A stretch of 6,280 nucleotides of DNA from Bacteroidota bacterium. GTDB lineage: Bacteria > Bacteroidota > Bacteroidia > Chitinophagales > LD1. Below the pieces are notes generated by a model, which did no database searches, was not told the DNA's origin, and worked only from the letters and a program-made list of their open reading frames with translations. Where the stretch lies: assembly GCA_023428205.1 (NCBI GenBank), contig JAEYZB010000054.1, positions 1 to 6,280 of the forward strand. The letters are read 5' to 3'. The position numbers were made by a program, and so were the translations under genes. This document shows positions 4,150 to 6,280 of this stretch, piece after piece (position 1 is the stretch's first letter; each line of letters begins with the position of its first letter).

Positions 4150-4224
4150 ATGTCGCACAAACACACCAACGAACTCATCAACGAAACCTCACCCTACCTT
4201 TTGCAACACGCGCATAAATCTTAA
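4150..4224 (+). pseudogene. Copy A: orphaned 5' end of the DUF255 gene, interrupted by cassette 1
   Basis: Translates as MSHKHTNELINETSPYLLQ plus HAHKS, then TAA. Residues 5-22 match the intact gene product at 5504 (MHTNELIHETSPYLLQHAH) except for one Asn/His difference, so this is the beginning of a DUF255 gene cut off after codon 22. It also has the longer N-terminus MSHKHTNEL, which resembles that of many DUF255 proteins, and it has its own upstream sequence (4109-4149). It is therefore the best candidate for the original start at this locus, from before the modules arrived. Beyond the junction the sequence passes straight into the leader of module 1. A 24-residue peptide could still be translated, but nothing suggests it has a function. 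Confidence 0.85.
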
Positions 4225-4278
4225 AAACGGATCTCTTTACCTGTTTTTTCAATGTGCGCGAAGTTTCGTATCTTCGCT
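4162..4278 (+). repeat. Direct repeat copy 1 (DUF255 5' end plus 58-bp leader)
   Basis: This is a 117-bp unit made of two parts: about 59 bp of DUF255 5' coding sequence (4162-4220) and a 58-bp leader (4221-4278, from TTAAAAACGG to TCTTCGCT). It matches 4824-4939 with 5 substitutions and one 1-base indel (CATAAATC against CATAATC) in the coding half and 5 substitutions without indel in the leader half, by my hand alignment. The coding half alone recurs a third time at 5507-5564. Confidence 0.9.
4247..4276 (+). promoter_or_regulatory. Putative promoter of toxin-antitoxin module 1
   Basis: TATCTTCG (4269-4276) resembles the Bacteroidota -7 box TAnnTTTG. An upstream T-rich -33-like element ending TTTC (4247-4250) lies 18 bases before it. 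The distance from the -7 box to the antitoxin ATG is exactly 18 bases, the same as in module 2, although the last 16 bases differ between modules. That conserved spacing supports this as the shared control region, where antitoxin autoregulation would be expected. Confidence 0.5.
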
Positions 4279-4294
4279 TTGATAAAACGAACTT

Positions 4295-4513
4295 ATGACA
4301 TACACGTTTGAAATAAAAGAAACCAAAGAGTCGCTTCCACTCATTGCGCATTTGAAAACATTGAAGTATGTAAAAGCGCACAAAACAAACGACATTTCAG
4401 CAGAAGAAAGGCAAATGGCGAAAGCCGTGAAAGTAGCCGAGAAAGGCAAATCTATTGCGTGGGCAGAGTTTAAGCAAGACGCGAAAACGTGGAAAACCAA
4501 GCTTACGAAATAA
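4295..4513 (+). CDS. Putative type II antitoxin, module 1
   Basis: A 72-aa protein starting MTYTFEIKETKESL and ending KTWKTKLTK. It is lysine- and glutamate-rich, with a central AEERQMAKAVKVAEKGKS stretch that looks helical. I recognise no named antitoxin family or certain DNA-binding motif. The antitoxin call rests on context: a small charged ORF directly behind a promoter, with its last 25 bases overlapping the start of a RelE/ParE-type toxin gene. Such antitoxins typically bind and block the toxin with the C-terminal part and repress their own operon, but neither role can be seen here. The length is identical to that of the module 2 antitoxin, yet the two sequences show no clear similarity. 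Confidence 0.75.
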   Translation: MTYTFEIKETKESLPLIAHLKTLKYVKAHKTNDISAEERQMAKAVKVAEKGKSIAWAEFKQDAKTWKTKLTK

Positions 4514-4818
4514 TCATCAAAGAGCAAGCGCGTTTGGACGTGCTAAATCAATATCTCTTTTTTGCGGAAGAGTATTCGGTGCAATATGCGGAAACGTTTT
4601 TGTCGGGGTTTATCGAGCAAGTAGAAAACATTTTGCCTTTTGTGTGGGCATTTCCCGAATGCCGTTTTCTTCCGACAAAAAACCACATTTACCGCAACAT
4701 CGTTTGGGAAAACCATTTAATCATTTATAAAATCGTGAAGTTTGAAATTTGGGTTGTTGGCGTGTTTTACGCAAAACAAAATCCGAAAAAATTGAAACAA
4801 TATAAGCGCGTGAAATAA
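4489..4818 (+). CDS. RelE/ParE superfamily toxin, module 1
   Basis: A 109-aa protein with the layout of the RelE/ParE superfamily: an N-terminal strand with YEIIIKEQARLDVLNQY (6-22), two helices with FLSGFIEQVENILPF (37-51), then the C-terminal sheet YRNIVWENHLIIYKIV (68-83) and EIWVVGVFYAKQNPKKL (86-102). RelE members cleave ribosome-bound mRNA and ParE members poison DNA gyrase; the sequence does not say which this is. The start is GTG at 4489, 25 bases inside the antitoxin gene, and no in-frame ATG offers a better choice. The overlap implies translational coupling, with low-efficiency initiation keeping toxin below antitoxin. The stop is followed after 2 bases by the ATG of DUF255 copy B. 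Confidence 0.85.
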   Translation: MENQAYEIIIKEQARLDVLNQYLFFAEEYSVQYAETFLSGFIEQVENILPFVWAFPECRFLPTKNHIYRNIVWENHLIIYKIVKFEIWVVGVFYAKQNPKKLKQYKRVK

Positions 4819-4820
4819 CC

Positions 4821-4922
4821 ATGCACACCAACGAACTCATCAACGAAACATCGCCATATCTTTTGCAGCACGCGCATAATCTTAAAAACGGATCTCTTTG
4901 CCTGTTTATTCAATGTATGTGA
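4821..4922 (+). pseudogene. Copy B: orphaned 5' end of the DUF255 gene between the two modules
   Basis: Codons 1-20 read MHTNELINETSPYLLQHAHN, matching the intact gene at 5504 except for one Asn/His change. After AATC (4881) the sequence leaves the gene and continues into the leader of module 2, so the frame runs on through 13 unrelated codons (LKNGSLCLF...) to TGA at 4920-4922. It begins 2 bases after the module 1 toxin stop, in the same relation the intact gene has to the module 2 toxin. This implies it was once the working start of the gene before cassette 2 arrived. Any 33-residue peptide made from it is probably a by-product. Confidence 0.85.
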
Positions 4923-4939
4923 AGTTTCGTATCTTCGCT
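4824..4939 (+). repeat. Direct repeat copy 2 (DUF255 5' end plus 58-bp leader)
   Basis: A 116-bp counterpart of 4162-4278. The leader half (4882-4939) matches 4221-4278 at 53 of 58 positions without indel, by hand alignment. Its coding half matches both copy A and the intact gene. It forms the junction between the two modules, serving as the right end of one and the left end of the next. Confidence 0.9.
4907..4937 (+). promoter_or_regulatory. Putative promoter of toxin-antitoxin module 2
   Basis: TATCTTCG at 4930-4937 is identical to the -7-like box of module 1, with an upstream TATTC T-rich element (4907-4911) 18 bases before it. The antitoxin ATG again follows after exactly 18 bases. No terminator is visible between here and 5504, so this promoter probably also drives the DUF255 gene. 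Confidence 0.5.
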
Positions 4940-4955
4940 ACATAATTTCAGCACA

Positions 4956-5174
4956 ATGACAACAATAGCAGGAATAGAAATAGAAAAAAATGCCAAAGGG
5001 CAGGACGCGTTTATTCGTATTGATTTGAAAAAATACGGAAAGAAATTGCAGCCGTTTTTGCAGGAAATTGGTGTTGTGGAAGGTGTGTTTGAAGAGGAAT
5101 GGCAAAACGCATTGACGATTGAAGAGGCGAAAGAAAAATCGCTCAAAAAAATCCGTGAATGGTGGAAAAAATAA
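4956..5174 (+). CDS. Putative type II antitoxin, module 2
   Basis: A 72-aa acidic and lysine-rich protein. The N-terminal half (GIEIEKNAKGQDAFIRIDLKK, roughly residues 6-26) looks like paired strands. The C-terminal stretch LTIEEAKEKSLKKIREWWKK (53-72) is a likely amphipathic helix ending in tryptophans and lysines. The layout, a short strand region followed by an IEEA-rich helix and a stop overlapping a RelE-like toxin, is one I associate with small Bacteroidota antitoxin-like proteins, but I cannot name a family. The gene overlaps the toxin start by 16 bases. It begins at the same distance from its promoter as the module 1 antitoxin. Confidence 0.75.
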   Translation: MTTIAGIEIEKNAKGQDAFIRIDLKKYGKKLQPFLQEIGVVEGVFEEEWQNALTIEEAKEKSLKKIREWWKK

Positions 5175-5494
5175 TTGTTTCCATAAATCCTAACGTTGTT
5201 GATTATTTAGACAAACTCACGTTTAGGCTTTACGAAGCCGAATACTTTAGCTACATAGAAAATGCCGACCAATATGTGTTGGATATTTACGCTGCAATTG
5301 AGCCGGCTATCAACAATAAAAAACACAAACAAACGCCTTTTGTGTTGCTTTCTTATGGCGAGTTTTACGTTTCCTATAAAACAACAGAACGAACGGCTTG
5401 GTATATTTTCTTTTCGAGAAAAGAAAATCGTGTTGTTGTAAAACACATCACGAATAATCACGTTGCGGACGCGAGTTTTCTCGAACATCTTTAA
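5159..5494 (+). CDS. RelE/ParE-like toxin, module 2 (divergent)
   Basis: A 111-aa protein that fits a RelE/ParE-type fold: an N-terminal strand (EKIIVSINPNVVDYLD), a helix with YIENADQYVLDIYAAIE (32-48), then C-terminal strands with VSYKTTERTAWYIFFSRKENR (71-91) and VVVKHITNNHVADASFL (92-108). YKTTxRTxWYIFF followed by HITNNH is a pattern I associate with a Bacteroidota group annotated as RelE/ParE-family toxins. Lys/Arg and His residues in the last third could be catalytic, but this cannot be confirmed by eye. It starts at ATG 5159 inside the antitoxin gene, implying coupled translation. It shows little similarity to the module 1 toxin. The DUF255 ATG follows 9 bases after its stop. Confidence 0.72.
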   Translation: MVEKIIVSINPNVVDYLDKLTFRLYEAEYFSYIENADQYVLDIYAAIEPAINNKKHKQTPFVLLSYGEFYVSYKTTERTAWYIFFSRKENRVVVKHITNNHVADASFLEHL

Positions 5495-5503
5495 TCAGAA
5501 ACA

Positions 5504-6280
5504 ATGCACACCAACGAACTCATTCACGAAACCTCGCCATACCTTTTGCAGCACGCGCACAATCCCGTGAATTGGGTGGCGTGGAGCGAAAAGTCGTTGG
5601 CGCGTGCTCAAGCGGAAAACAAATTGCTGATTGTGAGCATTGGTTATTCGGCTTGTCATTGGTGTCATGTGATGGAACGCGAGAGTTTTGAAAATGAAGC
5701 GGTGGCGCGGGTGATGAACGCGCATTTCATTTCCATAAAAGTGGATCGTGAGGAGCGTCCCGATGTGGATATGATTTATATGGATGCGGTGCAGCTCATC
5801 ACGGGTCACGGAGGTTGGCCGCTCAACGCGATTTGTCTGCCGAATGGAAAACCGATTTATGCCGGCACCTATTTTCGTCCCGAACAGTGGGTACAGGTCT
5901 TGCAGTTTTTGCAAAACGAATTTGAGAAAGAACCTGAAAAAACGGCACAGCGCGCGGATGAAATCACCGAACATATACAAGCGATGAATGTGGTTCCGCT
6001 CATTTCGGAAAGCGTATTTTCAAAAGACGCTTTTCCTGCTTCTTGGGCGAAATACAAACAGATGTGGGACTTTGAATATGGTGGACGAAAAGGGGCGCCA
6101 AAATTTCCGATGCCGAGTAATTTGAAATACTTGTTGGAGCTCTATATGGTTGAAAAAAACGAGGAGGTTTTGCTTGCGGCAACGGCAACATTAGACGGAA
6201 TGATTTTGGGAGGAATTTATGACCACGCGGGCGGAGGTTTTGCGCGCTATTCGGTGGACGAATTTTGGCACATTCCGCAC
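5504..6280 (+). CDS. DUF255/YyaL-type thioredoxin-fold protein, 3'-truncated by window
   Basis: The frame is open from ATG 5504 to the last base (259 codons, no stop); family members run to roughly 670-700 aa. The N-terminal thioredoxin-like domain is unmistakable: TSPYLLQHAHNPVNW (10-24), the redox-type CHWCH motif at Cys51-Cys54, FISIKVDREERPDVD (75-89), GGWPLNAICLPNGKP (103-117), and AGTYFRP (120-126). The next domain begins with APKFPMPSN (198-206) and GGIYDHAGGGFARYSVDE (236-253), typical of the family's glycosidase-like all-helical part. The biochemical role of the family (bacterial YyaL, animal SPATA20) is not established. The gene sits 9 bases behind the module 2 toxin and has no separate promoter that I can see. 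The expected N-terminal extension MSHK is absent here but present in the orphan start at 4150, which suggests that this start arrived with the cassette. Confidence 0.95.
   Translation, partial: MHTNELIHETSPYLLQHAHNPVNWVAWSEKSLARAQAENKLLIVSIGYSACHWCHVMERESFENEAVARVMNAHFISIKVDREERPDVDMIYMDAVQLITGHGGWPLNAICLPNGKPIYAGTYFRPEQWVQVLQFLQNEFEKEPEKTAQRADEITEHIQAMNVVPLISESVFSKDAFPASWAKYKQMWDFEYGGRKGAPKFPMPSNLKYLLELYMVEKNEEVLLAATATLDGMILGGIYDHAGGGFARYSVDEFWHIPH
5507..5564 (+). repeat. Direct repeat copy 3 (DUF255 5' coding part only)
   Basis: 58 bp matching 4824-4881 with 5 differences, and the corresponding part of 4162-4220 with 6 differences plus the 1-base indel (hand alignment). The match ends at base 5564, the first base of codon 21 (CCC). 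There copies A and B switch to the TTAAAAACGG leader, while this copy continues as the gene. That position defines the insertion point. Confidence 0.9.

Follow-up and report, generated by a model that had tools for sequence, protein, structure and literature searches.

Two predicted toxin-antitoxin (TA) pairs stand in tandem at the start of a DUF255 (Thioredox_DsbH) gene in a 6,280-nucleotide stretch of DNA from a Bacteroidota bacterium (contig JAEYZB010000054.1, assembly GCA_023428205.1; the whole stretch that was analysed is called the window below), and each pair lies between copies of the 5' end of that gene. Our best reading of this arrangement is a TA "insertion with long target duplication", in which the duplicated gene ends were likely brought by the donor. 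On balance, we favour the view that the pairs arrived on DNA of related strains, each with its own copy of the gene end, and were placed by homologous recombination, which left one gene whole. Besides the anatomy of the window, we demonstrate that the same bracketing occurs at other genes, that one relative has an empty site, and that the two copies of a gene end differ mostly at third codon positions.

The movement of TA modules from chromosome to chromosome outside known mobile elements is an unsettled matter. According to passages of a review (PMC3874152), TA mobility is often ascribed to carriers, and some restriction-modification (R-M) genes are mobile by themselves. A concrete and testable route is offered by copied gene ends, whose footprint lends itself to genome-wide counts, to dating, and to comparison with empty sites. 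If the reading is true, it would account for some of the modules that lie flush against housekeeping genes, and duplicated gene ends would serve as arms for gain, loss, and stacking.

Anatomy of the DUF255 locus

All features of the locus lie on the forward strand. The 5' end of the DUF255 gene, ca. 18-20 codons, is present in triplicate, beginning at positions 4150, 4821, and 5504; these three starts, proposed in a preliminary description of the DNA, were confirmed by sequence matches of ca. 90%. Copy 3 (5504-5564) belongs to the intact gene (5504-6280; PF03190, E = 4.9e-65), which continues past the window edge. Copies 1 and 2 are orphans: the first (4150-4216) encodes 24 amino acids, MSHKHTNELINETSPYLLQHAHKS, followed by a stop, and the second (4821-4881) encodes 33 amino acids and reads into the leader that follows it. 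Copy 1 begins MSHKHTNEL; copies 2 and 3 begin MHTNEL. The leader is present after copies 1 and 2 (4217-4278 and 4878-4939). Described earlier as a nearly identical 58-bp sequence, it is indeed shared, but its length is 62 bp and the identity of its copies 92%. Leader copy 1 ends 16 bp before the antitoxin ATG and is promoter-like, a putative promoter of the Bacteroidota kind.

Gene end and leader together form a composite repeat, a single uninterrupted block in which 4162-4278 matches 4824-4939 (117 columns, 90.6% identity, E = 1.6e-41). The 5' end of the intact gene (copy 3) is matched by copy 2 (4817-4881 and 5500-5564; 65 bp, 90.8%, E = 1.9e-21) and by copy 1 (4162-4217 and 5507-5562; 89.3%). 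Where the gene end meets the leader, copy 1 carries one additional A, and the claim that both copies break off at the same codon therefore holds to within one base. The predicted modules occupy the intervals, antitoxin 1 (72 amino acids, 4295-4513) with toxin 1 (109 amino acids, 4489-4818), and antitoxin 2 (72 amino acids, 4956-5174) with toxin 2 (111 amino acids, 5159-5494). The stop codon of toxin 1 is 2 bp, and that of toxin 2 is 9 bp, upstream of the next DUF255 ATG, which bears out the statement that a new start follows each pair at this distance. No RNA or tRNA features were found in the window.

Predicted toxin-antitoxin pairs

In both pairs, the antitoxin gene precedes the toxin gene, which is the usual layout. 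None of the four proteins was named by Pfam or NCBIfam above cut-off; relatives of toxin 1 carry PF05016 (8e-7 for P0002). The best match of the toxin 1 structure model was the PfiAT complex (E = 2e-6, TM 0.77), with ParE chains next, and the toxin 2 model gave a weaker match to the same complex (E = 2e-4, TM 0.62). By prediction, both pairs thus fit type II TA systems, with a toxin of RelE/ParE fold and a small upstream partner. A comparison of toxin 1 with toxin 2, of their profiles, and of antitoxin 1 with antitoxin 2 revealed no convincing sequence similarity. We therefore consider the pairs to be different units that have only the leader and the gene end in common.

Each unit consists of one antitoxin ORF and one toxin ORF, with no recombinase of its own; the nine main ORFs of the window include no recombinase or integrase family that was recognized, and no known defence family was detected in five window proteins. 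Two other sources were considered for the modules and rejected: region 4150-5570 had no match in a phage collection, and a plasmid origin of toxin 2 was represented by a single weak match (29%).

Toxin loci bracketed by direct repeats

Direct repeats around the module were first seen at loci of toxin relatives, and toxin loci of related genomes were then surveyed for them. The first 100 PF05016 matches starting at or beyond base 1500 of a contig were taken as a sample; the PF05016 rule was fixed beforehand, and its spacing limit of 2500 was later lowered to 1500 and finally put at 1600. With E ≤1e-5 and spacing ≤1500, 24 of the 100 toxins were bracketed. When positions were shifted within these regions, 63 of 3498 were bracketed, all 63 confined to 7 loci. 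All toxin searches together yielded 173 loci, 168 of them distinct. At E ≤1e-4 and spacing ≤1600, 42 of the 168 were bracketed (25 of the 100 PF05016 loci and 17 of the 68 found with the window toxins). Acetyltransferase genes, used as controls, were bracketed in 1/30 and 1/40 cases, i.e., 2/70 (Fisher test against 25/100, P = 7e-5).

Stacking and cargo other than toxins were also observed. At L201:4690-5924, three copies of the 3' end of one gene are present, and the gaps between them hold a TA pair and a NUDIX gene. At L425:2115-3318 (G056:C69), a gene for a YhcG/DUF1016-type nuclease lies between two 5' ends of a C39-peptidase ABC transporter gene (97 bp, 95%), and the stop of a toxin gene with a weak match (30%) to toxin 1 is directly before the first, orphan transporter copy. 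The earlier proposal that such units can stack is supported by the further stack at L201.

Copied gene ends at other genes

Of the 42 bracketed loci, 17 showed a repeat that pairs the terminal part of an adjacent gene with an orphan piece. Four were 5' ends and thirteen were 3' ends, and the repeats measured 30-261 bp. The targets recognized by Pfam include urocanase, aconitase, a class II (D, K, N) tRNA synthetase, CinA, enoyl-CoA hydratase, Sir2, a NADH-quinone oxidoreductase/antiporter subunit, DciA, a thiamine-pyrophosphate enzyme, and flavin reductase. With so many unrelated target genes, repeats of such variable length, and 13 of the 17 at 3' ends, the idea that a short gene end acts as a fixed attachment site is not supported.

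Where a 5' end was copied and the module was co-directed with the gene, the toxin stop lay 4 bp before the gene start at L182 and 4 bp at L170. L155 is an exception, with ca. 55 bp between toxin stop and gene start, and at L154, module and gene are in opposite orientation. In the window, L182, and L170, where only a few bp separate the toxin stop from the gene start, the gene would join the operon of the module.

Module and empty site at the urocanase locus

The urocanase locus was compared in five genomes of one genus (G054, G100, G089, G107, and G040). In G054 and G100, the urocanase gene is followed by a module and a second gene end; both are missing from G089, which is 99% identical in the protein segment searched. 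The distance from the urocanase end to the downstream gene in G089 is ca. 120 bp, the same as that from the orphan end to the downstream gene in G054 and G100. The G107 and G040 loci likewise gave no match to a toxin or an antitoxin, and the downstream gene was not found in G107. Between G054 and G100, the module is 98.6% identical, urocanase 94%, and the downstream gene 88%. Because the module is more alike than its flanks, it likely moved between the two lineages at one site.

Search for the leader and for other DUF255 stacks

At the DUF255 locus itself, no counterpart of the window was found. The intact gene was at most 59% identical to the best 80 of 591 matched loci, none of which displayed a second DUF255 start (best second match, E = 0.22), and none was seen in a second set of 34 loci, 4 of them shared with the 80 (best second match, E = 0.38); some of the loci were truncated upstream and so unable to show a second start. 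In 30 genomes of one family, a full-length DUF255 match was present in 22 (57-64%) and pieces in three more (56-73%). For the window, a single start was seen only in distant relatives, 73% identical at best and over a fragment. The leader had no exact match in the genome contigs searched and only chance-level matches in the 30 family genomes (best E = 0.03). An 18-mer of it occurs in four viral sequences; the likeness is confined to those 18 bases and was taken as chance, and the leader was accordingly rejected as a dispersed element.

The checks suggested in the preliminary description, a search for the leader in related genomes and at other loci and a comparison of DUF255 loci with differing numbers of modules, thus yielded no further case: the leader and the second start were not seen in any of the other sequences searched, and on these comparisons the stack is so far unique. 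The preliminary description had held that a leader and partial start restricted to one genome, with no empty-site relatives, would refute its proposal. This objection applies in part, as the leader was indeed seen nowhere else that was searched, but the wider pattern of bracketed modules is independent of it.

Origin of the copied gene ends

Differences between intact and orphan ends were counted by codon position in the 17 gene-end pairs. L164 (a short doubtful ORF) and L189 (where the repeat stops short of the gene end) were excluded from the count, and a single insertion, present in two related genomes, is counted as both L194 and L195, which reduces the 17 cases to at most 16 independent events. 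The test is post hoc, as the gene-end set was picked after the repeats had been seen. Among 121 differences, 22, 22, and 77 fell at codon positions 1, 2, and 3, respectively (64% third positions); 58 changed codons were synonymous, and no stops were present in the orphan pieces. In the window, the corresponding differences were 0/0/5 between copies 1 and 2, 1/0/5 between copies 1 and 3, and 1/0/4 between copies 2 and 3. Third positions account for 7 of the 8 variable sites across the three copies (P = 0.003 versus one third; 0.035 versus one half). Among 31 relatives and the window, 6 of 496 pairs differed by 4-7 of the same 54 nt (protein identity median 90%, range 59-96%).

These figures bear on the alternative that survives best, which we nevertheless consider unlikely, namely nested insertion in situ with long target duplication. 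The leader and pair 2 would have entered first, with a duplication of ca. 60 bp, and pair 1 would have followed just after the leader, with a 117-bp duplication of gene end and leader together; drift of the copies would have come afterwards. No second allele is needed in this case, the shared leader and break point are explained together, and the 117-bp repeat is one unbroken block; moreover, R-M gene insertion with long target duplications is reported in sections of PMC3874152. The drift of dead copies was simulated by letting the copy decay freely while the gene kept only synonymous changes, at equal rates (2000 runs). Third positions then made up 44% of differences (sd 4%), and the observed 77/121 was reached in 0/2000 runs. 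Nonsynonymous changes were expected in 63% of changed codons versus 41% seen, and 2.8 stops on average over the 17 cases versus none, although 7% of the runs, too, were free of stops. Without L195 (73/113 third positions), or without L195 and L154 (55/84), none of 1000 runs per set attained the observed value. The two orphans of the window differ from each other at five sites, all of them third positions. We conclude that the paired gene ends, as far as their sequences tell, speak against in situ copying and decay, being mostly different at third positions and free of stops. The third-position bias, together with a level of similarity like that among relatives, suggests instead that the copies resemble gene ends of different strains or species. 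The earlier notion of a "replacement" gene end is upheld in part only, in that the copies differ more like diverged alleles than like decaying ones.

In a still less probable alternative, the gene end would be a genuine attachment site, and a site-specific recombinase acting in trans would mobilize the pairs as satellites, much as integrative elements restore the end of a gene. The restoration of gene ends on both sides and the predominance of 3' ends (13/17) would fit this alternative, and hops between species would be expected to leave third-position differences. Against it stand target genes unrelated by Pfam, the 30-261 bp spread of the repeats, and the lack of recombinase families among the main ORFs of the window; in addition, toxin stops 2-9 bp before the next start leave no room there for a separate attachment site. 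It is quite improbable that the 5' orphans encode leader peptides (24 and 33 amino acids) that are translated and kept by selection as regulators of the pair: both are open from an ATG, and their mutual differences over 18 codons are only synonymous, but 3' orphans, which have no start of their own, are equally biased (46/72 third positions versus 31/49 for 5' ends). An assembly or binning artefact, to which the listing of the toxin-1 protein on no more than two contigs, the longer one equal to the window in length (6280 bp), might point, is hardly credible given copies that differ by ca. 10% and the same design in other genomes.

Proposed route of insertion

For the favoured reading, arrival on related-strain DNA followed by homologous recombination, we infer all of the following steps, from donor recruitment to stacking. 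A donor fragment that contains a module and a gene end would pair with the gene end of the recipient. In the founding event, one junction would be homologous and the other illegitimate; the recipient's own gene end would stay behind as the orphan, and the donor's end would complete the gene. The two copies of the gene end could then act as homology arms, through which the module may pass to any strain with a single gene. Loss would occur by pop-out between the copies and stacking by unequal crossing-over. The window stack likely represents two single-module alleles that shared the leader and were joined by one crossover between DUF255 ends. The leader would then be the promoter region of the DUF255 locus rather than a cassette end. 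Its presence in both units does not prove a cassette end, as it can be explained by one junction carried along twice. The intact DUF255 gene would now be read from the module promoter and so be tied to the pair. Of the cassettes without transposase that were proposed earlier, there remain recombinase-free modules between gene-end copies, with one intact gene and with recurrence elsewhere, but no special cassette end. With more reserve, we raise the possibility that TA modules in Bacteroidota form a recombinase-free mobile class, characterized by a gene-end homology arm, host recombination, an intact gene, operon capture, and stacking.

Several observations weigh against donor-brought gene ends, or against the generality of the pattern. 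In the codon test, nonsynonymous changes make up 41 of the 99 altered codons, the level of difference is similar in non-coding and coding parts of the repeats (22/209 and 121/ca. 1190), and the third-position bias is not seen at single loci L194 (2/4), L195 (4/8), L231 (2/5), and L319 (2/5). A dominance of third positions would also result from translation and selection of the orphans, or from a gene end transported by a site-specific element. In the survey, 25 of the 42 bracketed loci lie outside the gene-end set, several of them with intergenic repeats and others unclear; PIN toxin loci were bracketed in 4/30 cases, which alone is not significant (P = 0.06 versus control), and direct repeats of the same spacing occur away from the toxin in 17 of 100 regions (51 pairs, 18 of them from one tandem array). 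At the urocanase locus, the G054 orphan has, over 50 nt, 4 differences to the intact end of G100, 6 to its own, and 7 to the gene at the empty site, and these numbers gave no decision when its assignment to donor or recipient was attempted. G054-G100 identity is flat in the last 400 nt of urocanase (93-96%); as it is not raised near the gene end, any transferred stretch of this gene must be short. Finally, the order of events in the window is deduced from a single genome, since no second one with the leader or stack was found.

Comparison with known systems

Insertion with long target duplication of R-M genes was reportedly described by Nobusato et al. in 2000 and Furuta et al. in 2010. The resemblance to the present case consists of a selfish toxin/antidote-like pair, no transposase, and direct repeats of ca. 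100 bp that copy the target; the repeats are 65 and 117 bp in the window and 30-261 bp in the 17 gene-end cases. Unlike in R-M insertions, the cargo here comprises two predicted RelE/ParE-fold TA pairs in modules well under 1 kb, inserted at gene ends; the copies look like diverged alleles, and one gene bears two stacked modules.

Integrative elements such as tyrosine-recombinase islands restore the end of a host gene. Here too, a copy of the host gene end is made and an intact gene remains; unlike such elements, the units contain no recombinase, their many targets are unrelated, and repeat length varies. Integrons harbour cassettes that are small TA units and that stack, as those in the window do. 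In contrast to integron cassettes, no integrase family was found in the nine main ORFs, and spacings of 2-9 bp leave no room for attC, which was not modelled. In homology-facilitated illegitimate recombination during natural transformation, one homologous anchor is combined with one illegitimate junction; the same logic is proposed here for the founding step only.

According to passages of PMC3874152 and PMC3031569, R-M genes can insert with target duplications of ca. 100 bp and no mobile element; corresponding portions of PMC2654758 and PMC4615327 added no TA case. No TA insertion with long target duplication was described in titles or abstracts of the open-access literature among the matches listed, and no paper in that literature was found to combine "homology-facilitated illegitimate recombination" with TA. 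Insertion with long target duplication is itself known, and what is likely new is the TA cargo together with gene ends of likely donor origin.

Other repeats and open reading frames

Directly upstream of the stack, the window contains a 271-residue ORF (3293-4108) that has no Pfam, NCBIfam, or PADLOC match. At L203, L205, L212, L217, and L218, toxin loci are bracketed by intergenic repeats of ca. 155-288 bp that are not recognizable gene ends; these are possibly another kind of flanking element. Near a toxin-1-type pair at L152:255-1007, an ORF resembling, by eye, a Y1/REP-associated transposase lies between 94-column repeats (81%). A long tandem array with a period of ca. 75 bp adjoins a toxin gene at L266:1782-4793.

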